This document shows, one piece after another, positions 10,473-23,389 of a stretch of DNA of 46,187 nucleotides. Numbering within the stretch: position 1 is the stretch's first letter; every line of letters begins with the position of its first letter. The notes under the pieces are model-generated. The model was not told the origin of the DNA. It saw only the letters and a program-made list of their open reading frames with translations, and ran no database searches. This DNA is from Pseudomonadota bacterium. GTDB taxonomy: Bacteria; Pseudomonadota; Gammaproteobacteria; Burkholderiales; Methylophilaceae. The position numbers were made by a program, and so were the translations under genes. The DNA lies in the NCBI GenBank assembly GCA_029556915.1, contig JAKQIT010000143.1, forward strand, positions 1 to 46,187, written 5' to 3'.

Positions 10473-10826
10473 ATGGCAACAAAAGGCTTTAAATATAAAA
10501 AACAAGCAATCAAAGACCAGCAACCATCGATGAATGTGCCTGGTGTTCCAGCTTGGCTCGGCGATACATTTGTATCAGCTGACAAAGATAAAACAATTTG
10601 TGCAGGCTTCTTCCGTTTGGAAAAAGGCGATAAATTAGTTTATGACTATGATTATGAAGAAATGAAAATTATCGTTGACGGTACTTTTATCATTTCTGAT
10701 GAAACTGGTCAAAAAGTAACTGCAACAATGGGTGATGTATTTTACTTCCCAAGTGGCAGTCGTATTACTTTTGAAACTCCTAACTTTGCAGTAGGATTTT
10801 TCTGCGGCCAACGTGCGCCTTTGTAA
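10473..10826 (+). CDS. Small EutQ-like cupin protein
   Basis: A 117-residue single-domain cupin. It shows the conserved beta-barrel phrasing: YDYEEMKIIVDGTFIISDE in the first half and TMGDVFYFPSGSRITFE in the second (about 63-100). The histidine metal ligands of classic cupins are not present, so it may not bind metal in the usual way. The shape resembles EutQ/DUF861-type cupins that occur near amine degradation genes. AGGAG lies seven bases before the ATG. It converges on the GNAT gene across a shared terminator. Its substrate is unknown; a link to amine use is inferred from position only. Confidence 0.75.
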   Translation: MATKGFKYKKQAIKDQQPSMNVPGVPAWLGDTFVSADKDKTICAGFFRLEKGDKLVYDYDYEEMKIIVDGTFIISDETGQKVTATMGDVFYFPSGSRITFETPNFAVGFFCGQRAPL

Positions 10827-10896: not shown

Positions 10897-11352
10897 TTAT
10901 AAAAATAAGCGCCTTGCTTGTAGTTGAGTTGACTCCCACTTTAGGTGATCGTAATAACCTAGTGCTTTGGTATTTTCTATGTCTACTAATAGCTGCGCGC
11001 GCGTTGCACCGTTATGTTTAGCCCAATCTAATGTGTTTTGTAGTAGTTGCTTACCTATTCCTTGTCCGCGATATTTTACATCAACCACCATATCTTCAAT
11101 CCATGCTGAAGCCGCGCCTTCTGCTGTGGAAATGACTAACTGTGAGGTGACCATACCAATAACCCTACCCGAAGCATTTTTAGCTACTTGGATGTTGGCA
11201 GTAGTGTTGTTTCTAACAAGTAGCTCAAGACCTCTTTTTTGTTTAGAAAAGTCTGGTTTAAAGTCCACTTCAATTGTAAATAAAACTGATAATAAGTTAA
11301 CTAAGTCTGGGATGTCTGACACTTTTGCTTCGCAAAAAAGGATTTTTTCCAT
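10897..11352 (-). CDS. GNAT-family N-acetyltransferase
   Basis: A 151-residue GCN5-related acetyltransferase. The acetyl-CoA loop is KYRGQGIGKQLL (about residues 94-105), preceded by the beta-4 strand WIEDMVVDVKYRG and followed by NTKALGYYDHLKWE, the usual C-terminal motif. The substrate is unknown. It starts seven bases after the HTH-cupin regulator stops, so the two are one transcript. That placement suggests a small amine or an amino-acid intermediate of the methylamine pathway as substrate, but nothing in the sequence proves it. Confidence 0.88.
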   Translation of the reverse strand: MEKILFCEAKVSDIPDLVNLLSVLFTIEVDFKPDFSKQKRGLELLVRNNTTANIQVAKNASGRVIGMVTSQLVISTAEGAASAWIEDMVVDVKYRGQGIGKQLLQNTLDWAKHNGATRAQLLVDIENTKALGYYDHLKWESTQLQARRLFL

Positions 11353-11359
11353 AAATTAA

Positions 11360-11998
11360 TTACTCTTCAGAGTGATTCTTATCTGGCGCATCGTAATGAA
11401 TAATTGCTAGAAATTTAATTGGAGTTTGAATAAAACTTTCGGGTCGGTGCGGAATATCTCCTTGGAAGGTTAGGGAGTCGCCTCTGCTAAGTACAAATGT
11501 TTCTTTTCCAACTCGATACTCAAGTTTTCCCTCAAGCATGTGTATGAATTCAGTTCCAGGGTGCTCAAACGCTGGAAACTCTTCATGAGAATCTTCTAGT
11601 GTGATTAAAAATGGTTCAAAAGTTTTGTGGGGACCTTGATCATACGCTAGTAGATGATAAGTATGACCAACTCGCGTTCCCCTTCTGACCACTTCCATAC
11701 CTTCACCATCTTTAACTAGCTGAGCTGCTCCACGAGGTAAGTTATAATTTTGAAAAAGCTTCGATAAAGTCACCCCTAAAGCATTTGCAAGTTGCTCTAA
11801 CGTTTCAAGGCTAGTGGCGGCTAAGTTATTCTCTATTTTACTCAACATGCCTCGGCTAATGCCTGCGCGCTCTGAAACTTCCGCTATCGTTAAATTATGA
11901 TCTAATCTTAATTGTCGAATGGTTGTGCCTAAATGTCGCCCAAGAGACTTGTTTTGTTCTTCTGCTTTACCTTCTTCAGATTCTTTATATGCGGTCAT
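11360..11998 (-). CDS. HTH-cupin (PuuR-like) transcription regulator of the methylamine region
   Basis: A 212-residue regulator. An XRE-type helix-turn-helix lies at about 25-80 (IRQLRLDHNLTIAEVSERAG, then ISRGMLSKIENN). A C-terminal cupin sensor is at about 130-205 (EEFPAFEHPGTEFIHMLEGK, then GDSLTFQGDIPHRPE). The architecture matches PuuR, which represses the gamma-glutamylated putrescine pathway in E. coli; here the neighbour pathway also runs through a gamma-glutamyl amide. The gene is divergent from the Fae-like gene, and the shared 235-bp gap holds one copy of the paired GTTTCA box found twice more before mgdA. I infer that it controls this region and itself, probably as a repressor. 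The ligand is unknown. Confidence 0.88.
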   Translation of the reverse strand: MTAYKESEEGKAEEQNKSLGRHLGTTIRQLRLDHNLTIAEVSERAGISRGMLSKIENNLAATSLETLEQLANALGVTLSKLFQNYNLPRGAAQLVKDGEGMEVVRRGTRVGHTYHLLAYDQGPHKTFEPFLITLEDSHEEFPAFEHPGTEFIHMLEGKLEYRVGKETFVLSRGDSLTFQGDIPHRPESFIQTPIKFLAIIHYDAPDKNHSEE

Positions 11999-12113
11999 TA
12001 TAATTTTCCGTTGCAGTTATTAAATCGCATATTACTAGAGACTGAGCCAAGCTTGCAAAATAATTCGTATAACTCACTAAAGTTGCACTTAATTACAGTT
12101 ATTTGTGATAAAA

Positions 12114-12140
12114 GTTTCACTAAGTTAATAATTGTTAATG
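12114..12140. promoter_or_regulatory. Paired GTTTCA box in the regulator/Fae-like intergenic region
   Basis: GTTTCAC at 12114 and GTTAATG at 12134 are exactly 20 bp apart. With its flanks, the element matches 19 of 27 bases of the pair at 13780-13806, and both are followed by an A-rich AAAAAC run. It is a candidate operator for the divergent HTH-cupin regulator, controlling the Fae-like gene and possibly the regulator itself. Confidence 0.6.
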
Positions 12141-12233
12141 TATTATAAAAACATATTCAATTTTATTACAGCAATTGAATCAGTAATGTCAGTATTTATG
12201 CCAGATAGTTTTATTGTTTATTAGGAGAGTAAT

Positions 12234-12782
12234 GTGAGTGAACGTATTGTGATGAGAACTGGTGAGGCGCTGGTTGCAGGTGGCCCTCCAGGTACTGCAG
12301 CAGAACCTGAAATCATTATTGGTGAGTTAGATGGACCAGTTGGAACGGCTATTGCCACATTAACAGGCGATCAAGTAGCTGGTCATACACGAGTTTTTGC
12401 AATATTAAATACTGATATACAAGTTCGACCTGTGACGTTGATGGTCAGTAAGGTTACGGTGAAAGAAACCAAATATACCAATATTTTAATGGGTACCGTT
12501 CAAGCTGCGATAGCAAATGGTGTTTTAGATGCAGTACGTGCTGGTGATATTCCTAAAGAGCGTGCAAATGATTTAGGTATTATTGTTTCAGTCTGGCTGA
12601 ATCCAATGGTAACTAAAGATGAAAATTTAGATCATAAAATTTTGTTTGAGATTCATCGTAAAGCCACGGCTACCGCAATTCATAAAGCTATGAATAATAA
12701 GCCTGATATTGATTGGCTGCTCGAAAACCAAGACAAGATTACACATAAGTATTATCAAATGGGTTTGGACGGTAAGCTTTAA
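12234..12782 (+). CDS. Formaldehyde-activating enzyme (Fae) paralogue lacking the catalytic His
   Basis: A 182-residue Fae-fold protein. Authentic Fae condenses formaldehyde with tetrahydromethanopterin. The start motif GEALV (10-14), the strand EIIIG, the segment VTLMVSKVTVKE (matching Fae PNTVMFNKVTIKG), AGDIPKERANDLGIIVSVW and RKATATAIHKAM all align. The residue that should be the catalytic His of Fae (in VAHIDLIIG) is Glu24 in AEPEIIIG, beside a two-residue insertion, so normal catalysis is doubtful. The C-terminus also differs. Translation starts at GTG, with AGGAG six bases upstream. It probably shares control with mgdA through the paired boxes. A formaldehyde or pterin sensor, or a carrier, is possible. 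It ends one base before the convergent deformylase gene. Confidence 0.85.
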   Translation: MSERIVMRTGEALVAGGPPGTAAEPEIIIGELDGPVGTAIATLTGDQVAGHTRVFAILNTDIQVRPVTLMVSKVTVKETKYTNILMGTVQAAIANGVLDAVRAGDIPKERANDLGIIVSVWLNPMVTKDENLDHKILFEIHRKATATAIHKAMNNKPDIDWLLENQDKITHKYYQMGLDGKL

Positions 12783-12783
12783 T

Positions 12784-13593
12784 TTACTTGTTTTTATTTG
12801 CCCATTTAAGACATGTTTCAATAAGGTCGCTAAGCAATGGCTTAAGCTTTAATGCTAACGCTTCGTCATATTTATATGGGGGTTTTTCCTCCATATAGAT
12901 AGACTGGCTCATTTCCAACTGAATTGCATGTATATTTTTTTCAGGCGCCCCATAGTGTCTTGTAATGTATCCACCTTTAAATCGACCGTTAAATACATAG
13001 CTGTAATTCACAGCATTATCAGATTGGATCATCGTTTTTTCGATGGCTTCTTGTAAAGAAATATTGCAAGAGCTTATATTTGCCGTTCCAAAATTTAAAT
13101 CTGGCAGTTTACCGTCAAAGAACCTTGGAACATGAGAGGCGATTGAGTGCGCATCCCAAAGTATCGCTATGCCATGAATGCTATGAATTCTTTCTAACTC
13201 AGCTTTTATTTTTTTATGATATGGCTGCCAATATTGCTTAATTCTTTCTTGTACTTCTTGCTCATTCGGTTGCATATTTTTAAGATAAATTAGCTCTTTC
13301 GAAAAAGTATCAATTGGGCATAAACCAGTCACATCTTGACCTGGGTAAAGCGAAGTATTTTCAGGAGGTCGGTTAAGGTCAATCACATTGCGTGCAAATT
13401 CTGCGTGTAATACAGAAATATCATATTTTTCTACTATGCTATAGAGTAGCGGGAGATGCCAATCTACATCGGGAAGATTCTGAGCGTTGGTCGTTAATCT
13501 ACTTTTGAGTTCATTGGGTAGCGCTGTGCCAACATGGGGCATAGAAATCAAAATCGGTGAGTTTCCGCCGTGAAAATGAAACGTTTCATCCAT
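12784..13593 (-). CDS. N-formylglutamate deformylase (HutG/FGase family)
   Basis: A 269-residue amidohydrolase that cleaves N-formyl-L-glutamate to formate and glutamate. It has the family landmarks PILISMPHVGT, FARNVIDLNRPPEN, ILWDAHSI, FFDGKLPDLNFGT, NGRFKGGYITRHYG and QLEMSQ. These include the metal-binding His/Glu/Asp residues. I chose the ATG at 13593 (MDETFHFHGG) because a GAGGG ribosome site is ten bases upstream; in-frame ATG (13614) and TTG (13620) lie before it. No other hut (histidine) gene is near. Its place between a Fae-like gene and mgdA, sharing the mgdA promoter region, suggests it handles N-formylglutamate arising around N-methylglutamate oxidation. Confidence 0.9.
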   Translation of the reverse strand: MDETFHFHGGNSPILISMPHVGTALPNELKSRLTTNAQNLPDVDWHLPLLYSIVEKYDISVLHAEFARNVIDLNRPPENTSLYPGQDVTGLCPIDTFSKELIYLKNMQPNEQEVQERIKQYWQPYHKKIKAELERIHSIHGIAILWDAHSIASHVPRFFDGKLPDLNFGTANISSCNISLQEAIEKTMIQSDNAVNYSYVFNGRFKGGYITRHYGAPEKNIHAIQLEMSQSIYMEEKPPYKYDEALALKLKPLLSDLIETCLKWANKNK

Positions 13594-13705
13594 CCTAAGT
13601 TTTCCCTCATGCATTAGCAATGTACTACTTTGGTGGTACTACCAAATATCTAAGTTCTCTAAGTTATTAATATCTATAGTAGGAGTTAATAAGACTTTAA
13701 CATAA

Positions 13706-13732
13706 GTTTCATAATAATAAAAAAAGTTTCAT
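13706..13732. promoter_or_regulatory. Paired GTTTCAT box, upstream pair of the mgd promoter
   Basis: Two identical GTTTCAT heptamers start at 13706 and 13726, exactly 20 bp apart. They lie just upstream of the -35-like TTGACT and between the divergent deformylase and mgdA genes, so they could serve either direction. Confidence 0.65.
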
Positions 13733-13739
13733 TTATGTG

Positions 13740-13770
13740 TTGACTTCAATAAATTGATATGGCTTAATAC
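13740..13770 (+). promoter_or_regulatory. Candidate sigma-70 promoter of the mgd-gmaS-mgs operon
   Basis: TTGACT (13740-13745) and TAATAC (13765-13770) are 19 bases apart; TTAATA at 13764 gives 18. The site lies between the two paired boxes, the downstream pair of which would cover the start of transcription. Confidence 0.45.
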
Positions 13771-13779
13771 GTTAACAAA

Positions 13780-13806
13780 GTTTCATACAGATTAAAAAAG
13801 TTTATG
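13780..13806. promoter_or_regulatory. Paired GTTTCA box, downstream pair of the mgd promoter
   Basis: GTTTCAT at 13780 and GTTTATG at 13800 are again exactly 20 bp apart. Position just downstream of the candidate -10 element would suit repression. The sequence after it (ATATTAAAAAC) matches the end of the 12114 element. Confidence 0.65.
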
Positions 13807-13876: not shown

Positions 13877-15118
13877 ATGCCCTTAAGACTACTAAAATTT
13901 GCACTCTCAAAAGAGCACCCAGCACCTCGCTTTTTCAAGGCGCATGAGACTCCAAAGAAATCTTATGATGTGGTTATTATTGGCGGTGGCGGACATGGTC
14001 TAGCTGCTGCATATTACTTAGCTAAAGACCACGGCATTACTAATGTTTGTGTACTTGAAAAGGGTTACATAGGCGGAGGAAATACAGGTCGCAACACGAC
14101 AATTGTACGTTCAAACTATTTGACACCGGAAGGTGTAAATTTCTACGATGCCAGCGTAAAGATTTATGAAGGCCTTTCTGAAGAATTAGATTTAAATCTA
14201 TTCTACTCAACACGCGGTCACTTCACGCTTGCACACACCGAATCAGCGATGCGTACCATGAGATGGCGTGCTGAGGTCAATAAGCACGTAGGCGTTGAAA
14301 GTCGAGTGGTTGGACCAGATGAAATTGCTAAAGCTTGTCCTCAGTTGGATTTGAGCTGTAGCGGTCAAGCACCAATATTAGGTGCTCTTTATCATGCGCC
14401 CGGCTCAGTGGCGCGTCACGATGGCGTAGCTTGGGGCTTTGCACGCGGTGCAGATCGTTTAGGGGCAGAGATTTATCAAAATACTGAAGTGCTAGGTATT
14501 GATGTTAAAAATGGTAAAGTCTGTGGTGTTAAAACGAACAAAGGCTACATCGAAACTAAACAAGTGTTATCTGCAGTAGCAGGTTTTACGCCACGAATCA
14601 CTGAAATGGTGGACTTAGAAACGCCAATCGTTATTCATCCATTACAGGCTTGCGTTACTGAACCAATGAAACCTTGGTTGGATACTATCTTGGTTTCAGG
14701 TAGCTTGCATGTTTACGTGAGTCAATCTTCTCGTGGTGAGTTGGTCATGGGTTCTTCACTAGATCCTTATGAAGTCCATTCAACACGTTCTACGCTAGAT
14801 TTCGTTGAAGGACTCACTTCTCATATGTTGGATATGTTCCCTTTCTTATCAAATGTCAAAGTGGTGCGCCAATGGGCTGGTATGGCTGATATGACGCCTG
14901 ACTTCGCTCCGATTATGGGTAAAACGCCAATTGAAGGTTTTTATATTGATGCTGGTTGGGGTACGTGGGGTTTCAAAGCTACGCCAATTAGTGGCAAAAC
15001 TATGGCGCAAACCATCGCAAATGATAGTGCGCCTGACTTAATTCACTCATTCCGTTTGTCACGTTTTGAAGATTATGAACTGACAGGGGAAAAGGGCGCT
15101 GCGTCAGTAGGCCACTAA
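13877..15118 (+). CDS. mgdA: N-methylglutamate dehydrogenase subunit A (SoxB-like)
   Basis: A 413-residue flavoprotein homologous to the beta subunit of heterotetrameric sarcosine oxidase. It contains the catalytic site that oxidises N-methylglutamate. The FAD Rossmann motif DVVIIGGGGHGLAAAYYLA (31-49) follows a 30-residue lead. GRNTTIVRSNYL (71-82) is the usual second dinucleotide segment. The His of ARHD (residue 181) aligns with the residue that carries covalent FMN in sarcosine oxidases. Near the C-terminus, WAGMADMTPDFAPIMG and DAGWGTWGFKATP are typical. It is the first gene of the mgdABCD-gmaS-mgsABC run, behind a promoter region with two paired boxes. Confidence 0.95.
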   Translation: MPLRLLKFALSKEHPAPRFFKAHETPKKSYDVVIIGGGGHGLAAAYYLAKDHGITNVCVLEKGYIGGGNTGRNTTIVRSNYLTPEGVNFYDASVKIYEGLSEELDLNLFYSTRGHFTLAHTESAMRTMRWRAEVNKHVGVESRVVGPDEIAKACPQLDLSCSGQAPILGALYHAPGSVARHDGVAWGFARGADRLGAEIYQNTEVLGIDVKNGKVCGVKTNKGYIETKQVLSAVAGFTPRITEMVDLETPIVIHPLQACVTEPMKPWLDTILVSGSLHVYVSQSSRGELVMGSSLDPYEVHSTRSTLDFVEGLTSHMLDMFPFLSNVKVVRQWAGMADMTPDFAPIMGKTPIEGFYIDAGWGTWGFKATPISGKTMAQTIANDSAPDLIHSFRLSRFEDYELTGEKGAASVGH

Positions 15119-15158: not shown

Positions 15159-15437
15159 ATGAAATTACTCACATGTCCCATGAATGGAACAAGACCGCTA
15201 AGCGAGTTTGTTTATGGTGGTGAATACCGCCAAGCGCCAGATCAAGATACTTGTAGTGATGCTGAATGGGCTGCGTATGTGCATAACCGTAGCGGCGCAC
15301 CGGGCGACAAAAAAGAATGGTGGTATCACTCACCAAGTGGCACATGGTTTATTGCAGAGCGCAACACGTTAACAGATAAAGTGACTCGTAGTTATCTTCT
15401 TGGCCAAAATAATACTACTCAGGAGGAAGGCAAATGA
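15159..15437 (+). CDS. mgdB: N-methylglutamate dehydrogenase subunit B (SoxD-like)
   Basis: A 92-residue counterpart of the sarcosine oxidase delta subunit, which in that enzyme binds a structural Zn2+ between subunits. CPMNGTRPLSEFVYGGE at the start, AEWAAYVHNR, and EWWYHSPSGTWFIAERN near the end follow the family pattern. Two of the four usual zinc ligands seem to be missing: the CPxCG pair reads C6-P-M-N9-G, and the Cys four residues after His57 is Gly61. Zinc may be absent or bound differently here. AGGAA is about seven bases before the ATG. It overlaps mgdC as ATGA. Confidence 0.92.
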   Translation: MKLLTCPMNGTRPLSEFVYGGEYRQAPDQDTCSDAEWAAYVHNRSGAPGDKKEWWYHSPSGTWFIAERNTLTDKVTRSYLLGQNNTTQEEGK

Positions 15438-18328
15438 TTTTTCGTACACCCAAACAGGCCGGTGAATGGGTTAACCGTACAAAAAAAGTCAGCTTCACTT
15501 TTGAAGGCGAAGAGTTTTCGGCATTTGAAGGCGATACCATCAGTAGTGCATTGTGGGCTGCAGGTCAAAAAGTATTAGGACGTAGCTTCAAATATCACCG
15601 TACACGTGGTGTGCTAAGTTTAGCTAACCATGACGTCAATGTGATGGTAACAGATGGCATGGATACCAATATTCGTGGTGATGTTGTAGAAGTTAAAGAT
15701 GGTATGAAGTTACTTGCTGTTAATACCAGTGGTAGCGTAAAAAATGATAAGAATAGTTACATTGATTCAATCTCACCATTATTACCAGTAGGTTTTTACT
15801 ACAAGGCTTTCCATACGCCACGTCGCTTATTTCCATTCTGGGAAAACGTCATCCGTAAAGCCGCTGGACTTGGTGTGGTTAATTTTGATTATCCTCGCAT
15901 ACTAAAACGTAAAACACATTCACATTGTGACGTGTTAGTGATAGGTGCAGGGCCAACAGGTTTAACTGCTGCGCTGACAGCAGCCGGAGCTGGACTTGAA
16001 GTCACAATTGTTGATGAAAATGCACATTTAGGTGGTAGTTTGGGCTACAACCGTGCTGGTGATACTAGTTTAGTTTCTCAGCTTGATGGTTTGCTAACTA
16101 AAGTAGCTAGTCTGCCAAATATTAAGGTGATGGCTGGCGCTTATGCGGCTGGTTATTATCCAGACCATCTAATTCCAGTTGTAAGTGATTCTGGCATTAA
16201 TAAAGTGCGTGCTAAGTCTGTAGTAGTTGCCTGCGGTGCTTTTGAACAACCTCCAGTATTTAGATATAACGATTTGCCAGGAGTGATGCTTGGTAGCGCC
16301 GCACAACGTTTAGTTTATCGTTATGCCGTTAAACCATTCAATAACGGCATTGTTGTGACTGCCAATGATTATGGATATCGCGTTGCAATAGATTTGCTTC
16401 AAGCAGGCGTTAAGATTGTTGCTCTAGTTGATATGCGTTCAGCGGGTAGCGTTGCAAATTCAGCAGAGCTTGCAAAACGTGGCGTCAAAGTTTACACAGG
16501 TCATTGTGTGTATGAAGCCCTTGCATCTTCAGACAAGTCTGGTGTCCGTGGTGCAGTCATTTGCGTATATGACGAAAAACAAAATAACGCCTTGACGGAT
16601 AATAAATTCACCCTTGAGTGCGATGGTATCGCGATGAGCGCTGGATGGGCGCCAGCTGCAGCCTTGTTATATCAGGCTGGTACAGGTATGCAGTTTGATT
16701 ATAACGTAGAGCAGTTTGTGCCTAGCCGCTTGCCAAATGGTATGTTTGCCGCAGGTAAAGTAAATGGTGTTTATGAGTTAGAACAACGCTTACAAGATGG
16801 CGTTCGTGCTGCCAATGATGCAATTCGTCATTTAGGTTTACAAGCGCCGCAAAATGAAGCTGTAAAACACGTTGGTAGTTTACCAAGTCATCCATACCCA
16901 ATGGTGCCACATCCAAAAGGTAAAAACTTTGTCGATTTCGATGAAGATATTCAAATTAAAGATTTTGTGAATGCCGCAAAAGAAGGTTTTGACAATATCG
17001 AACTAATGAAGCGCTTTACCACAGTTGGCATGGGTCCTAGCCAAGGTAAGCACTCTAATATGAACGCAATTCGCATTCTCGCTAAGATTCGCCAGTTACC
17101 TGTAGAAAAAATTGGTACAACAACTTCAAGACCATTCTTTCACCCAACACCAATCGGGCACTTAGGCGGACGCGGTTTCCATTCACACCGTTTGACTTCC
17201 TTGCACGATTGGCACCAAGCTAATGGCGCTGTGTTTACTGATATTGGTGCATGGAAACGTGCAGCTTATTATCCTGCAGCTGGTCAATCTAAAGAAGACG
17301 CAATTCAGACTGAAGCTTTAGCCGTGCGTAAAACAGCGGGCATGATTGATGGTAGCTCATTCGGCAAAATTGAAATTCATGGCCCTGATGCGGCACTGTT
17401 CTTAGAGCGCTTCTTTACCGGTGTGTACACAGACCAAAAAGTTGGTTCATGCCGTTATGTGATGTTGCTTGATGAAGCAGGCGTTGTCATTGATGACGGT
17501 ATTGCAAGTCGCCTTGCAGATGACCTATTCTATATTTCAATCGGCACATCTAATGCTGCAGCGGTGTATCGCGAGATGCAACGTTCACAACAAATCTGGC
17601 TGCTCAATATTGGCTTAGTTAATGTGACTGGCGCTTTTGGTGCGCTCAATATTGCTGGCCCAGCAGCACGTGAAATTCTCTCAACATTGACTGATTTAGA
17701 TCTTTCATATGAATCACTCCCCATGAGTAGTGTGCGTGAAAGTCAGGTGGCAGGTGTGCAAACACGCATGATTCGCGTGGCGTTTGTGGCAGACAACGGA
17801 TATGAGTTACATGCACCTATGGGTCAAATGCCACACCTCTGGAATGCCTTAATTGAAGCTGGCAAAAAACATGGTTTACGCCCATTTGGTAGCGATACTC
17901 AACGTTTGCTTCGTCTAGAAATGGGTCACGTAATGCCTGGGGTAGATACGGATGGTTTAACTAACCCATTTGAAATCGGTGCCGAATGGGCAATTTCAAT
18001 GAATAAACCTTATTTCATTGGCCAAAGAAGTCTGGCGATTCTAACTAAACGATCATTAAGAAAACAGTTGGTGCCATTCACTTTAGCTGAAAACTACAAA
18101 GGTGAAATGCCGTTGGACTGCAACTTGGTGGTTGATGGACGTGCCATTTTAGGTCGCGTAACCAGCATTAGTTACAGCAAATATTTGGATCGCTGCATCG
18201 GTTTTGCCTATGTTTCACCAGCTCAAAAAGCTGTTGGTTCAACGTTCCAAATCCGTGTAGATAGCGGAACACTTGTAACTGCAACCGTGGTTAAAAGCCC
18301 ATTTATCAAAACTTTAAAGGGAGCATGA
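15434..18328 (+). CDS. mgdC: N-methylglutamate dehydrogenase subunit C (SoxA-like)
   Basis: A 964-residue alpha subunit. The N-terminal part (FTFEGEEFSAFEGDTISSAL, then GRSFKYHRTRGVLS) has the sarcosine oxidase alpha fold related to 2Fe-2S ferredoxin domains but shows no iron-sulfur Cys set. The NAD-binding Rossmann domain begins at about 158 with CDVLVIGAGPTGLTAALTAA. A central ACGAFEQPPVF segment marks the dehydrogenase core. From about residue 600 to the end is an aminomethyltransferase (GcvT-like) domain (GMIDGSSFGKIEIHGPDAAL, LRLEMGHVMPG) that in homologues receives formaldehyde on folate. The frame overlaps mgdB by four bases, and mgdD starts one base after the stop. Confidence 0.95.
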   Translation: MIFRTPKQAGEWVNRTKKVSFTFEGEEFSAFEGDTISSALWAAGQKVLGRSFKYHRTRGVLSLANHDVNVMVTDGMDTNIRGDVVEVKDGMKLLAVNTSGSVKNDKNSYIDSISPLLPVGFYYKAFHTPRRLFPFWENVIRKAAGLGVVNFDYPRILKRKTHSHCDVLVIGAGPTGLTAALTAAGAGLEVTIVDENAHLGGSLGYNRAGDTSLVSQLDGLLTKVASLPNIKVMAGAYAAGYYPDHLIPVVSDSGINKVRAKSVVVACGAFEQPPVFRYNDLPGVMLGSAAQRLVYRYAVKPFNNGIVVTANDYGYRVAIDLLQAGVKIVALVDMRSAGSVANSAELAKRGVKVYTGHCVYEALASSDKSGVRGAVICVYDEKQNNALTDNKFTLECDGIAMSAGWAPAAALLYQAGTGMQFDYNVEQFVPSRLPNGMFAAGKVNGVYELEQRLQDGVRAANDAIRHLGLQAPQNEAVKHVGSLPSHPYPMVPHPKGKNFVDFDEDIQIKDFVNAAKEGFDNIELMKRFTTVGMGPSQGKHSNMNAIRILAKIRQLPVEKIGTTTSRPFFHPTPIGHLGGRGFHSHRLTSLHDWHQANGAVFTDIGAWKRAAYYPAAGQSKEDAIQTEALAVRKTAGMIDGSSFGKIEIHGPDAALFLERFFTGVYTDQKVGSCRYVMLLDEAGVVIDDGIASRLADDLFYISIGTSNAAAVYREMQRSQQIWLLNIGLVNVTGAFGALNIAGPAAREILSTLTDLDLSYESLPMSSVRESQVAGVQTRMIRVAFVADNGYELHAPMGQMPHLWNALIEAGKKHGLRPFGSDTQRLLRLEMGHVMPGVDTDGLTNPFEIGAEWAISMNKPYFIGQRSLAILTKRSLRKQLVPFTLAENYKGEMPLDCNLVVDGRAILGRVTSISYSKYLDRCIGFAYVSPAQKAVGSTFQIRVDSGTLVTATVVKSPFIKTLKGA

Positions 18329-18329
18329 T

Positions 18330-19007
18330 ATGCAACAGTTTGACGTCAAAAGAATCATTCAAACATCACCTGTAGCGCATGCTCAGCCAAGAGCATCTGC
18401 TAAATGGGAAGTAATTAATGACATGGATACTGCAGTTGAGTATGAAAGCGCTGCCGTAGAAGAAGCAAGAAAAAAAGTGTTAGGTGTTGCTGATGTCAGC
18501 TGTCTCTCACGCTATGGCGTGAAAGGCCCAAATGCAACGCAGTGGTTGCTCGAGCGTGGGATTGCGATTCCAACCACACCAAACTCATGGACTTTGTGCG
18601 AACAAAAAACATTGGTACTACGCCTTGGTTCAAGCGAATTTTTAATTGAAGACCAGTTAGGTGGAACGGCTTGTAGCCGACTAGCTAGCGACACTGCTCG
18701 TGTTGCAAGTGTTTACAAAGTTCCACGTGCAGATGCTGCATTTATCGTGAGTGGTAGTGGGGCACTTAACATGTTGTCAGAACTTTGCTCTTTAGACCTA
18801 CGTGAAAAATCACTTGCTGCTAAAGATTTGATTATGACTCAAGTGGCAGGTATTTCGGCAACAGTCATTCGTCAAACATTAAACGGTGAGCAAACTTATC
18901 GTATTTGGTGTGATGGTACTTATGGCCCTTACATGTGGGAAGTTTTAACGGAAATAGCTACTGAGTTTGGCGGCGGCGCAGTTGGTTTATCAAAATACCA
19001 AAACTAA
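18330..19007 (+). CDS. mgdD: N-methylglutamate dehydrogenase subunit D (SoxG-like)
   Basis: A 225-residue gamma subunit related to the sarcosine oxidase gamma chain and to GcvT-like folds. VADVSCLSRYGVKGPNATQW, then LRLGSSEFLIED, and FIVSGSGALNMLSELCSLDL follow the SoxG layout. It completes the four-subunit enzyme. It begins one base after mgdC ends and is followed by a 78-base gap with a GGGAGA ribosome site for gmaS. No odd features are seen apart from the relatively diverged N-terminal 40 residues, as is usual for this subunit. Confidence 0.92.
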   Translation: MQQFDVKRIIQTSPVAHAQPRASAKWEVINDMDTAVEYESAAVEEARKKVLGVADVSCLSRYGVKGPNATQWLLERGIAIPTTPNSWTLCEQKTLVLRLGSSEFLIEDQLGGTACSRLASDTARVASVYKVPRADAAFIVSGSGALNMLSELCSLDLREKSLAAKDLIMTQVAGISATVIRQTLNGEQTYRIWCDGTYGPYMWEVLTEIATEFGGGAVGLSKYQN

Positions 19008-19085: not shown

Positions 19086-20420
19086 ATGAAATCATTAGAT
19101 GAAGCAAAGAAGTTTTTAAAAGACAATAACGTTAAATACGTTTTGGCTCAGTTCGTAGATATTCATGGTGTGGCTAAAGTTAAATCTGTACCAGCTTCAC
19201 ATCTAGAAGATATTTTAAAATCAGGTGCAGGTTTTGCCGGAGGTGCAATTTGGGGCATGGGAATTAAACCCAATGGCCCAGACTATATGGCAGTAGGTGA
19301 TTTATCAACTTTAAGCTTAATTCCATGGCAGCCAGGCTATGCCCGAATTGTGTGTGATGGTCACGTTAACGGTAAGCCTTATGACTATGACTCACGCGTA
19401 GTTTTAAAGAAGCAAATTGATCGTCTAAACAAAAATGGCTGGACTTTATATACAGGTCTAGAACCGGAATTCTCATTGCTCACACGTGATGCTGATGGCT
19501 CTATTCGTCCAACGGATGAAACTGACAAACTGGCTAAACCTTGTTATGACTACAAAGGTATCACAAGACAATCAGCCTTTTTAGAAAAATTAACCGAGTC
19601 ACTTATTGCTGCTGATTTAGATGTTTATCAAATTGACCATGAAGATGCAAATGGACAGTTCGAAATCAACTACACCTATGCTGATTGCTTAAAAAGTGCA
19701 GACGATTTCATCATGTTCAAAATGGCGGCGAGTGAAATTGCAAATGAGTTCGGTATGATTTGTTCACTCATGCCAAAACCATTTAGTAACCGCCCCGGTA
19801 ATGGTATGCACATGCATATGTCAATCGGCGATGGTAAAAAAAGTTTATTTCATGACGACAGTGACAAAACTGGTCACGGGCTTTCGAAATTAGCTTATCA
19901 CTTCATGGGAGGTTTATTGGCACATGCGCCAGCAATTACAGCACTGGCATGCCCTACAGTGAACTCATACAAACGTCTTGTGGTTGGTCAATCTTTAACT
20001 GGCGCAACATGGGCTCCAGCTTATATTTCATACGGTAATAACAACCGTTCAACGATGGTACGTATTCCATACGGTCGTTTAGAGTTGAGACTTCCAGATG
20101 GTGGTTGTAACCCATATTTAACGACTGCTGCTGTGATAGCTGCTGGTTTAGATGGCGTGGCTAGGGAGCTACATCCTGGTAATGGCCATTCAGAAAATCT
20201 ATATGACTATAGCCCAGCACAACTAAGAGAGCATGGCATTGGCGTATTACCACAAAATCTCAATTTAGCAGTTGATGCACTAGAGGCTGACAAGGTCATT
20301 ATGGAAGCTCTGGGTGAAGGTCTTATGAGTGAATTTGTAGCAATTAAGCGAGCAGAGTGGATTGAGTATCAGCGTCACGTGTCTGATTGGGAAATTAATC
20401 GATACGTTGAGTTTTTCTAA
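19086..20420 (+). CDS. gmaS: Gamma-glutamylmethylamide synthetase
   Basis: A 444-residue glutamine-synthetase-fold ligase. It joins methylamine to the gamma-carboxyl of glutamate with ATP. The beta-grasp domain carries [18 protein letters not shown] (18-35). The catalytic domain has [38 protein letters not shown], and the ATP/glutamate segment [20 protein letters not shown] followed by CNPYLTTAA. Residues in these motifs fit type III GS relatives rather than glutamine synthetase proper, and its location between mgd and mgs settles the name. It is the first committed step of indirect methylamine oxidation. GGGAGA is eight bases before the ATG. Confidence 0.96.
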
Positions 20421-20461: not shown

Positions 20462-21358
20462 ATGTGCGGAATTGTCGGATTATTAGTAAAAAATCCCAAA
20501 ATGCGTGACTCGATTGGTGAACTCATGTTGCCTATGTTAATTGGCATGACTGAGCGCGGACCTGACTCGGCAGGCATGGCGATGTTTACAGCGCCAGTAG
20601 CAGCAGACTCTAGAAAATTTAGTCTGTTTTCTGGTACCTCGGACTTTAATTGGACAAAATTAGGTCACGATTTTGAAAAACACTTGAGTGTTAAAGCTAA
20701 AGTTGAACCAAAAGAGAATCATGCCGTTTTAACAACAACACTAGAGCCCGCAACGGTGAAAATGTGGTTGAAAGAGCATTATCCGCAATTGCACTTATTG
20801 TCTGTTGGCCAATTAATGGATATTTACAAAGATGTTGGGACCCCAGCTCAAGTAGCAGATCGTTACGATTTCAAAAACTTTAAAGGTACTCACTTAGTTG
20901 GTCATACACGTATGGCAACAGAATCGGCTGTGACGCCAGCGCATGCTCACCCATTTACTGCGGGTGAAGACTGGTGCTTAGTTCATAACGGTTCTTTATC
21001 AAATGCACATAGCCTACGTCGTAAATTAGAGAAAGAGGGTATCGAGTTTGAAACAGACAATGATACTGAAGCTGCTTGCCGCTTCTTGCAATGGCGTATG
21101 CGTGAAGGTGATGACCTAAAAACAGCGCTTAATCACGGCTTTGAAGAACTTGATGGCTTTTACACATTATTAATGGGTACAAGTACTGAGCTCGCTTTGG
21201 TGCGTGACCCATACGGTTGCAAACCAGCAATTATTGCAGAGCATGATGATTATGTTGCGATTGCATCTGAATTTCGCTCATTAGCTCATTTGCCAGATAT
21301 CAAAAATGCGAAGGTATTTGAGCCTTCACCTAAGGAGATGTATGTATGGAAACTCTAA
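20462..21358 (+). CDS. mgsA: N-methylglutamate synthase subunit A (class II glutamine amidotransferase)
   Basis: A 298-residue Ntn-hydrolase amidotransferase domain. After removal of Met1, Cys2 (MCGIVGLL) is the nucleophile. ERGPDSAGMAMF, HTRMATESAVTPAHAHPF and WCLVHNGSLSNA mark the glutaminase site. LVRDPYGCKPAIIA is near the end. In the enzyme it takes gamma-glutamylmethylamide instead of glutamine and releases methylamine into the synthase. A long insert at about 45-125 is typical of the mgs type. AGGAG lies seven bases before the ATG. Its last 13 bases overlap mgsB. Confidence 0.95.
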   Translation: MCGIVGLLVKNPKMRDSIGELMLPMLIGMTERGPDSAGMAMFTAPVAADSRKFSLFSGTSDFNWTKLGHDFEKHLSVKAKVEPKENHAVLTTTLEPATVKMWLKEHYPQLHLLSVGQLMDIYKDVGTPAQVADRYDFKNFKGTHLVGHTRMATESAVTPAHAHPFTAGEDWCLVHNGSLSNAHSLRRKLEKEGIEFETDNDTEAACRFLQWRMREGDDLKTALNHGFEELDGFYTLLMGTSTELALVRDPYGCKPAIIAEHDDYVAIASEFRSLAHLPDIKNAKVFEPSPKEMYVWKL

Positions 21359-22038
21359 AATTTGATTTAGACACTAAACCGTTGCGCGAAATTAATCAAT
21401 TTCTTCATGGCGATGCTGATACGTTAAATGGTAAGAAAGTAGTGATTGAAAACCCTAATGGTGCACATAGTTTGGCAGTTGGACTGAAAGCTGATGTCGA
21501 TGTCACCATTAAAGGTCATTCAGGATACTACGCAGCAGGTATGAATCAGCTTGCAAAAGTGACGATAGAAGGTAGCGCTGGAAGTGGCGTGGGTGAAAAC
21601 ATGATGTCTGGTGTTGTGCATGTTAAAGGCTTTGCTTCAAATGCAGCAGGTGCAACTGCTAATGGCGGCTTACTCATCATTGATGGTGACGCAGGGCTTC
21701 GCTGTGGTATTGCCCTAAAAGGTGCTGACATTGTTATAGGTGGCTCTGTAGGTAGCTTTTCGGCTTTCATGGCGCAAGCAGGCAATATGGTTATTTTAGG
21801 AGATGCTGGTGAAGGTCTAGGAGATTCAATTTATGAAGCTAAGTTGTTTGTGCGCGGCAAAGTAAAAAGCTTGGGCGCGGATTGCGAAGAAAAAACAATG
21901 AATGCGGAAGATAAACAAATCCTTGCAGATTTATTGAAAAAATCAGGCCATGCTAATGTGAGTCCAGACAGCTTTAAGCAATACGGCTCAGCTCGCACCT
22001 TATACCATTTCCATGTTGATAACGCAGGAGCATACTAA
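21346..22038 (+). CDS. mgsB: N-methylglutamate synthase subunit B (GXGXG domain)
   Basis: A 230-residue right-handed beta-helix, equivalent to the C-terminal GXGXG domain of glutamate synthase. The repeating G-x-x-G-x-G turns are seen through SLAVGLKADVDVTIKGHSGY, EGSAGSGVGENMMSG, GGSVGSFSAF and GDAGEGLGDSIYEA. It structures the synthase complex and has no active site of its own. AAGGAG is eight bases before the ATG inside mgsA, so translation is coupled. The stop is one base before the mgsC start. Confidence 0.94.
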   Translation: METLKFDLDTKPLREINQFLHGDADTLNGKKVVIENPNGAHSLAVGLKADVDVTIKGHSGYYAAGMNQLAKVTIEGSAGSGVGENMMSGVVHVKGFASNAAGATANGGLLIIDGDAGLRCGIALKGADIVIGGSVGSFSAFMAQAGNMVILGDAGEGLGDSIYEAKLFVRGKVKSLGADCEEKTMNAEDKQILADLLKKSGHANVSPDSFKQYGSARTLYHFHVDNAGAY

Positions 22039-22039
22039 A

Positions 22040-23389
22040 ATGAGCGACAATAATCACAAAACCCCTCAAACAAAACCACGTTTTTCCGCGACGTTTGATG
22101 AATATACAAACTCAGAAATCAGACGTGCAGCGGCAACAGGTATCTACGATATCCGTGGTGCAGGCTCAAAACGCAAGTTGCCACATTTCGATGATTTGTT
22201 GTTCCTTGGTGCATCAGTAAGCCGTTACCCACTAGAAGGTTACCGCGAAAAATGCGGTACAGATGTAGTGTTGGGTACACGATTTGCTAAAAAACCAATC
22301 CATTTAAAAACACCAGTTACGATTGCAGGTATGAGCTTCGGTTCATTATCTGGTCCAGCAAAAGAGTCTCTAGGTCGCGGTGCTACAGCAGCTGGAACCA
22401 GCACAACTACTGGGGACGGTGGCATGACGCAAGAAGAGCGTGGACATTCTAAAACATTGGTTTACCAATACTTACCTTCACGCTACGGTATGAATCCAGA
22501 TGATCTTCGTAAGGCGGATGCTATTGAGCTGGTGATTGGGCAAGGAGCTAAACCAGGTGGAGGAGGTATGTTGCTTGGCCAAAAAATTACTAAACGTGTG
22601 GCAAAAATGCGTTGCTTACCAGAAGGTATCGACCAACGTTCATCATGCCGTCACCCTGACTGGACAGGTCCTGATGACTTAGAAATCAAAATCGCCGAAT
22701 TACGTGAAATTACTGATTGGGAAAAACCAATTTACGTAAAAGTTGGCGCAACTCGTCCTTACTTCGATGTGGCACTTGCAGTTAAAGCGGGTGCAGACGT
22801 GATTGTCTTGGATGGTATGCAGGGCGGTACAGCTGCGACTCAAGAGGTGTTTATTGAGCACGTGGGTATCCCAATCTTGGCTGCGATTCGTCCAGCGGTA
22901 AAAGCATTGCAAGACTTAGGCGTTTATCGTAACGGTAAAGAAAGCGTTCAGTTAATCGTTTCAGGTGGTATTCGTAACGGTGCTGACGTAGCTAAAGCGA
23001 TTGCTTTAGGGGCTGATGCAGTTGCGATTGGTACTGCAGCGTTAGTGGCACTTGGTGATAATGACCCACATCTAGAAGATGAATATCAGAAACTAGGTAC
23101 TACAGCAGGTGCTTACGATGATTGGCATGAAGGTAAAGACCCAGCTGGTATCACTACACAAGATCCTGAGTTAATGAAACGTGTTGATCCGATCAAAGCT
23201 GGTCACCGTTTAGCTAACTACATTGCGGTGATGACGATGGAAGCTCAAGTGGTTGCACGTGCTTGTGGTAAATCTCATTTACACAATCTAGAACCAGAAG
23301 ATCTAGTGGCGTTAACTATCGAAGCATCGGCAATGGCACAAGTGCCTTTAGCTGGTACAAATTGGATTCCAGGAGTTTCAAAATTTTAA
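22040..23389 (+). CDS. mgsC: N-methylglutamate synthase subunit C (FMN synthase domain)
   Basis: A 449-residue glutamate-synthase-like FMN protein that adds methylamine to 2-oxoglutarate to make N-methylglutamate. The FMN barrel shows VTIAGMSFGSLSGPAKESLG, STTTGDGGMTQEER, GAKPGGGGMLLGQKI, VDP-containing and VIVLDGMQGGTAATQEVF segments, and SGGIRNGADVAKAIALGADA. CLPEGIDQRSSC (about 194-205) supplies Cys residues for the expected 3Fe-4S cluster. I placed the start at 22040, not at the in-frame ATG at 22013 inside mgsB, because CAGGAG lies nine bases upstream. It is the last gene of the run. Confidence 0.95.
   Translation: MSDNNHKTPQTKPRFSATFDEYTNSEIRRAAATGIYDIRGAGSKRKLPHFDDLLFLGASVSRYPLEGYREKCGTDVVLGTRFAKKPIHLKTPVTIAGMSFGSLSGPAKESLGRGATAAGTSTTTGDGGMTQEERGHSKTLVYQYLPSRYGMNPDDLRKADAIELVIGQGAKPGGGGMLLGQKITKRVAKMRCLPEGIDQRSSCRHPDWTGPDDLEIKIAELREITDWEKPIYVKVGATRPYFDVALAVKAGADVIVLDGMQGGTAATQEVFIEHVGIPILAAIRPAVKALQDLGVYRNGKESVQLIVSGGIRNGADVAKAIALGADAVAIGTAALVALGDNDPHLEDEYQKLGTTAGAYDDWHEGKDPAGITTQDPELMKRVDPIKAGHRLANYIAVMTMEAQVVARACGKSHLHNLEPEDLVALTIEASAMAQVPLAGTNWIPGVSKF

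Follow-up and report, generated by a model that had tools for sequence, protein, structure and literature searches.

The window, a 46,187-nucleotide stretch of a Methylophilaceae contig, contains a methylamine gene cluster together with a divergently transcribed regulator gene. The regulator, an XRE-cupin protein with HTH_3 and Cupin_2 domains that we propose as the operator-binding protein, is encoded on the reverse strand (11360..11998). Beside it lie a fae-like gene of the formaldehyde-activating enzyme family on the forward strand (12234..12782; PF08714, with TIGR03126 above its cut-off) and a HutG-like N-formylglutamate deformylase gene on the reverse strand (12784..13620; TIGR02017 above its cut-off). 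These are followed, all on the forward strand, by mgdA, encoding a soxB-like N-methylglutamate dehydrogenase subunit (13877..15118; 480 bits with TIGR01373, whose cut-off is 529), mgdB (15159-15437), the soxA-like mgdC (15434-18328), mgdD (18330-19007), gmaS, encoding a gamma-glutamylmethylamide synthetase that resembles type III glutamine synthetases (19086..20420), mgsA (20462-21358), mgsB (21346-22038), and mgsC, with a glutamate-synthase domain (22013-23389). Among these genes of the N-methylglutamate (NMG) pathway, gmaS scores above the cut-off of its family (TIGR03105), mgdA, mgdC, and mgsC have family matches, and the open frames mgdB, mgdD, mgsA, and mgsB are named by gene order. The name mgdA likewise comes from operon order, as in strain FAM5. 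Together, mgdABCD-gmaS-mgsABC apparently form one operon.

Several neighbors of the cluster recur elsewhere. A GNAT acetyltransferase gene (10897-11352) lies behind the regulator gene in the same direction, as it does in most family loci examined and in some others, so that the two are a conserved gene pair. A EutQ-like cupin gene (10473-10826) is close to the cluster and is retained in several Methylotenera loci; according to the available text of PMC5023230, EutQ-like genes adjoin methylated-amine genes in Gram-positive methylotrophs. N-formylglutamate deformylase homologs are found near the regulator again in several genera, which may point to some connection of N-formylglutamate with the methylamine pathway.

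The initial annotation had drawn attention to three pairs of short boxes in the intergenic regions of this cluster, and all three were recovered at the positions and with the exact 20-bp spacing that it had claimed: GTTTCAC at 12114 with GTTAATG at 12134, GTTTCAT at both 13706 and 13726, and GTTTCAT at 13780 with GTTTATG at 13800. The pattern GTTTCAY-N13-GTTWMWK matches the window three times, while 100 dinucleotide shuffles gave a mean of 0.02 matches and none reached three. Within the whole 3.28-Mb genome, there are four matches; three are the window pairs, and the second box of the remaining one, on contig C118, is poor. Single GTTTCAY boxes are common (28 in the window against a shuffle mean of 14.6), and the signal is therefore carried by pairing and position. 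Since the pattern was composed after the boxes had been seen, the window count by itself proves little; the real test of the boxes is comparison across other genomes.

Such comparison modified the picture of the site itself. The unit is predicted to be a 27-bp operator. Its GTTTCAY half-site is followed, a helical turn further along, by a second half-site that is inverted and in most cases degenerate, then by an A-tract, and at +20 by a third half-site in direct orientation. There are three such predicted operators in the window, all given on the forward strand: one in the gap separating the divergent regulator gene from the fae-like gene, ahead of the latter and over its likely start (12114..12140; position weight matrix score, 14.4, the third best in the window), which has aligned counterparts in Methylotenera relatives; mgd site 1, which ends 7 bp before the −35 element (13706..13732; 35.9, the best in the window) and starts 86 bp from the listed start of the deformylase gene, a possible further target; and mgd site 2, just past the likely start and 74 bp after site 1 (13780..13806; 30.5). 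Logos built from unique sequences, 34 for site 1 and 24 for site 2, showed a near-invariant GTTTC followed by three unconstrained positions, one that is mostly a purine, a stretch of K/W, the A-tract, and GTT at +20, with the second box tending to GTTTCAT in site 1 and to GTTWAT in site 2. Positions 10 and 12 to 19, between the boxes, are conserved. With such a middle, the spacer is not neutral and the boxes are not independent units, and the form first claimed, two boxes separated by 13 blank bases, gives way to one that has an inverted half-site inside.

Inverted repeats are the usual binding sites of XRE dimers. In Methylophaga, the first 17 bp of the site form an inverted repeat, perfect in one locus (GTTTCACTCAGTGAAAC in L248), followed by GTTTACT at +20, so that the two boxes originally noted correspond to half-sites 1 and 3; half-site 2, inverted and degenerate in the window, is near-perfect there. 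An inverted-repeat consensus, chosen after the data had been seen, reached a P value of 0.05 in 24 of the 46 loci L214-L259. Covariation between half-site 1 and the inverted half-site was looked for within the family, and none was found.

The two mgd sites stand in a fixed relation to the promoter. The −35 element TTGACT (13740..13745, forward strand) is conserved in position. Its companion is less firmly placed: the −10 region (CTTAATAC, 13763..13770, forward strand), read by eye from aligned upstream regions, offers hexamer candidates only, and the CTTAAT at 13763-13768, with a 17-bp spacer, appears more likely than the TAATAC at 13765-13770 of the initial annotation, which would require a 19-bp spacer. 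When site 1 was called from 13 or more agreements with a consensus of 20 letters ahead of TTGA[CA], the gap between the two was 6 to 8 bp in 39 of 43 upstream regions (7 bp in 32, 6 bp in 5, and 8 bp in 2). Site 2, for which a distance of 66 to 81 bp was allowed, starts 72, 73, 74, or 75 bp past site 1 in 33 of these 39 (8, 7, 9, and 9 cases, respectively). Beyond the sites and the promoter, conservation in the mgdA upstream regions is low. The remaining six genomes (G004, G005, G014, G024, G026, and G145) have site 1 only, with, as judged by eye, a palindrome near TTCATNATRTGAA over the likely −10 element. Outside the layout fall G041 and G028, with one site before mgdA and one before the fae-like gene; G031, with degenerate sites that by eye lie nearer each other; and G001, a doubtful case with no clear site at mgdA. 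For the fae-like gene of the window, we assigned by eye a likely promoter consisting of TTGCAC (12083-12088), a 17-bp spacer, and TGATAA (12106-12111), thus spanning 12083..12111 on the forward strand; a similar promoter was seen by eye before the fae-like gene in four other loci (L125, L126, L127, and L140).

We compared 150 family genomes. The HTH-cupin regulator is encoded in 43, and an mgdA ortholog with at least 76% identity is present in exactly the same 43; the mgdA search threshold was also passed by a 46 to 48% paralog (G106, G116, and G126) or a contig-end fragment (G045). A refined operator pattern, GTTTCHY-N5-KWAWWAAWGTTDM, gave 62 matches in 37 genomes, of which 35 are among the 43 that encode the regulator (34 having a match at the expected place) and 2 are among the 107 that do not. 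As this pattern was taken from sites already seen in some of the same, related genomes, the corresponding Fisher value of 4e-24 overstates the case. By hand placement, 59 of the 62 matches are at control regions of mgdA, the regulator gene, or the fae-like gene, while the reversed control pattern gave 2 matches. The off-target matches are in G109 and G051, both of which lack the regulator, and on contig C65 of G004, where it is the sole match of that genome; the surrounding open frames, as listed, suggest no connection. A looser pattern of the boxes alone matched 11 of 61 relatives, and in three of the Methylotenera group (G051, G117, and G169) the middle was unlike the operator and the match lay away from the regulator gene, which is absent from G051 and G117. 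The scan of relatives that the initial annotation had called for thus found the boxes conserved before orthologous mgd operons and tracking the HTH-cupin gene, and its proposed fae-like target is retained in the genus of the window and in one neighboring genus; the lack of conservation that was to refute the proposal was not what we saw.

These comparisons also bear on the idea that the conserved stretches are core-promoter elements or bendable, UP-element-like A-tracts, with no specific regulator. While the conserved A-tract ahead of the −35 element would suit it, site 2 is located past the start, the letters GTTTC and GTT are no less conserved than the A-tract, and the refined pattern is nearly confined to genomes with the regulator, making this explanation very improbable.

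With regulator and mgdA present in precisely the same genomes, their joint occurrence is not enough to tie the site to the regulator, and the genomes in which the two genes do not adjoin deserve particular attention. There are six of these, five from genus g10 (the Methylobacillus group) in addition to G031. A site lies beside the separated regulator gene in five of the six; none was found beside the regulator gene in G053 or beside the second regulator copy of G018. Divergent from the regulator gene in Methylobacillus are, by Pfam matches in the L119 copy, genes for a GATase, a GcvT-like protein, a DmmA-like reductase, and a heme-dependent N-demethylase, with similar frames downstream in L122 and L123. 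Such genes make up a dimethylamine demethylation set (PMC13390433). At L119 (3623-8285), the regulator-side operator stands at the head of this gene set, and a LuxR-type response regulator gene lies between the regulator gene and mgdA.

By sequence homology, the regulator has an N-terminal Cro/C1-type HTH_3 domain (PF01381, 58.6 bits against a cut-off of 23) and a C-terminal Cupin_2 domain (PF07883, 47.7 bits against a cut-off of 27.2). The initial annotation had called it PuuR-like, and it does share this architecture, as well as a nearby gamma-glutamyl-amine pathway, with PuuR of Escherichia coli, the XRE-cupin repressor of putrescine use. However, the PuuR equivalog PRK09943, despite being the best NCBIfam match, scores 45 bits, well short of its cut-off of 211, and the regulator is an XRE-cupin protein distinct from PuuR; the PuuR operator sequence was not found in the literature searched. 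In an alignment of 23 regulators, the residues of what we take to be the recognition helix are near-invariant, and H146, E150, and H184, presumably the metal ligands of the cupin, are invariant. The closest solved structure by both sequence and fold is PDB 1y9q, an HTH_3 family regulator from Vibrio cholerae that likewise combines HTH and cupin domains, with about 21% identity in the fold alignment to our model of the regulator (mean pLDDT, 72). In the Methylophilus group (L219, L220, and L130), a helix NISVGMFSKIEN occurs together with the site-1 boxes TATTCCT/TATTCAT, possibly reflecting a changed specificity; a C or K in this place of the helix, however, goes with normal boxes.

Another protein could bind the boxes, with the XRE-cupin gene a mere neighbor. 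Direct repeats about two turns apart beside a −35 element are typical of AraC-type activators, and the response regulator gene at L119 provides a second kind of candidate. For an AraC protein, there is a precedent in TmaR of Ruegeria pomeroyi, which is also encoded beside mgd and, according to the available text of PMC13390433, activates promoters of the NMG and methylamine pathways by binding to them directly; the exact DNA site of TmaR is not given in that text. The window regulator belongs to a different protein family, its HTH being of the Cro/C1 type, and is not of the TmaR type. Moreover, the genome has only two PF12833 (AraC-type) proteins, both encoded on other contigs, and the sites lie beside the regulator gene even where mgdA is elsewhere, accompanying it also in Methylophaga. 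We therefore regard binding by another protein as improbable.

The best explanation, and a highly probable one, is that the XRE-cupin protein encoded next to the paired sites uses them as its operators and would control an NMG regulon. Counting against it are the regulator genes with no site beside them, the lack of a clear site at mgdA in G001, the outside loci and class-wide regions described below that have no match, the matches of the looser pattern away from the regulator gene, the poor inverted half-site in the window, and the absence of covariation between half-sites. Conservation, layout, and linkage of the putative site to the regulator all emerge from genome comparison and support the original assignment to the HTH-cupin protein, whereas the simple two-box form and the PuuR-like identity that came with it do not survive.

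Outside the family, the same association is found at varying strength. A scan for relatives over genome contigs, from which the best 80 of 407 were used, includes, within L214-L259, 40 loci assigned by title or contig match to organisms outside the Methylophilaceae, with uninformative titles for L232, L246, and L251; L180-L213 are largely family genomes already used and were counted once. Among these best 80, a site with a shuffle P value of at most 0.01 is present in the gap beside the regulator gene in 28 of the 40 outside loci, some with a low absolute score, and no match at that level was found in the other 12; 13 of the 40 score at least 18.1, the lowest value of the training set. In the same selection, six of the seven Methylophaga loci carry a pair of sites upstream of mgdA at a distance of exactly 72 bp, and the better cyanobacterial sites are in reversed orientation. 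The cyanobacterial loci among L214-L258 have regulators that are 63 to 71% identical and, in most, a divergent mgdA with 70 to 74% identity. The comparison suggests that the pathway was passed on by gene transfer along with its putative switch, and the pairing of protein and predicted site is present in some of the cyanobacteria, more weakly than in related methylotrophs and Methylophaga. With the dimethylamine operons of Methylobacillus added to Methylophaga and some cyanobacteria, the predicted operator has a wider reach than first supposed.

A draw of 369 genomes across the class contained, besides the window's own, 12 with the regulator (44 to 65% identical) and 19 with mgdA. At a P value of at most 0.01, sites were present in 9 of 25 upstream regions from genomes with the regulator compared with 2 of 10 from those without, a comparison of low power since mgdA may sit inside operons there; scores of at least 15 were limited to the regulator-containing G353, G284, and G314 and the regulator-free G333. 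Once the identity of the regulator drops under about 64%, the site has mostly disappeared. The operator thus holds for close relatives of the regulator rather than for the wider superfamily.

As for how the regulator may act, activators typically touch the polymerase just ahead of the −35 element, and repressors block around the start. By eye, site 1 is at an activator position and site 2 and the fae-like site are at repressor positions; the mgd sites, one just ahead of the −35 element and one just past the start, are 72 to 75 bp apart, about seven turns, from which we infer an inducible switch. Through three half-sites, the regulator could make as many as three contacts along a single face of the helix. 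Without inducer, it would occupy both mgd sites and block the promoter, possibly through a loop; a metabolite of the methylamine pathway bound in the cupin domain would lead to release of site 2, after which the regulator would either leave altogether or aid RNA polymerase from site 1. For the fae-like gene, it would act over the start as a plain repressor. Given these site positions, repression by the regulator is likely, the chances of added activation from site 1 are about even, and looping between the mgd sites is less likely.

XRE-cupin proteins such as PuuR are repressors, and the regulator may be a plain one, with neither activation nor a loop, site 1 serving the divergent gene or providing extra occlusion. 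Site 2 and the fae-like site, on or past the start, are as expected for such a protein, as are the six genomes in which site 1 is combined with a palindrome over the likely −10 element. On the other hand, the fixed gap between site 1 and the −35 element and the recurring spacing of the two sites need more than occlusion. Plain repression is a serious contender, its probability falling somewhat short of even. The fullest version of the switch, in which the XRE-cupin protein behaves like AraC, with three-half-site operators seven turns apart, a repressing loop, and activation from site 1, and in which protein, sites, and NMG genes were transferred jointly among Methylophilaceae, Methylophaga, and cyanobacteria, is speculative and, taken as a whole, rather doubtful.

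Published expression data agree with induction in part. According to the available text of PMC3728764, the NMG genes of Methylovorus glucosotrophus SIP3-4 are on only with methylamine, while those of Methylotenera versatilis 301 are expressed in all conditions, and the differing expression in these two Methylophilaceae was suggested to reflect different regulation. Such constitutive expression is a poor fit to tight repression in the genus of the window. According to the available text of PMC5023235, growth of Methyloversatilis FAM5 on methylamine raises expression of the NMG genes, of fae3, and of a putative regulator gene in the same cluster. An XRE-family gene is repeatedly found near NMG genes in the methylamine clusters of Rhodobacteraceae, where, in the available text of PMC7574528, it is marked in a figure legend only; no publication on the XRE-cupin regulator described here was found in the literature searched, which mostly excluded subscription papers.

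The NMG pathway provides many bacteria with methylamine as a carbon or nitrogen source, and the only characterized regulators of methylamine genes in the literature searched are TmaR and TmoR of Ruegeria, the latter acting on tmm. With a candidate regulator and its operator, the differing regulation of this pathway becomes directly testable. The putative operator furthermore offers a sequence rule for calling members of the regulon, one whose reach extends to the dimethylamine genes of Methylobacillus.
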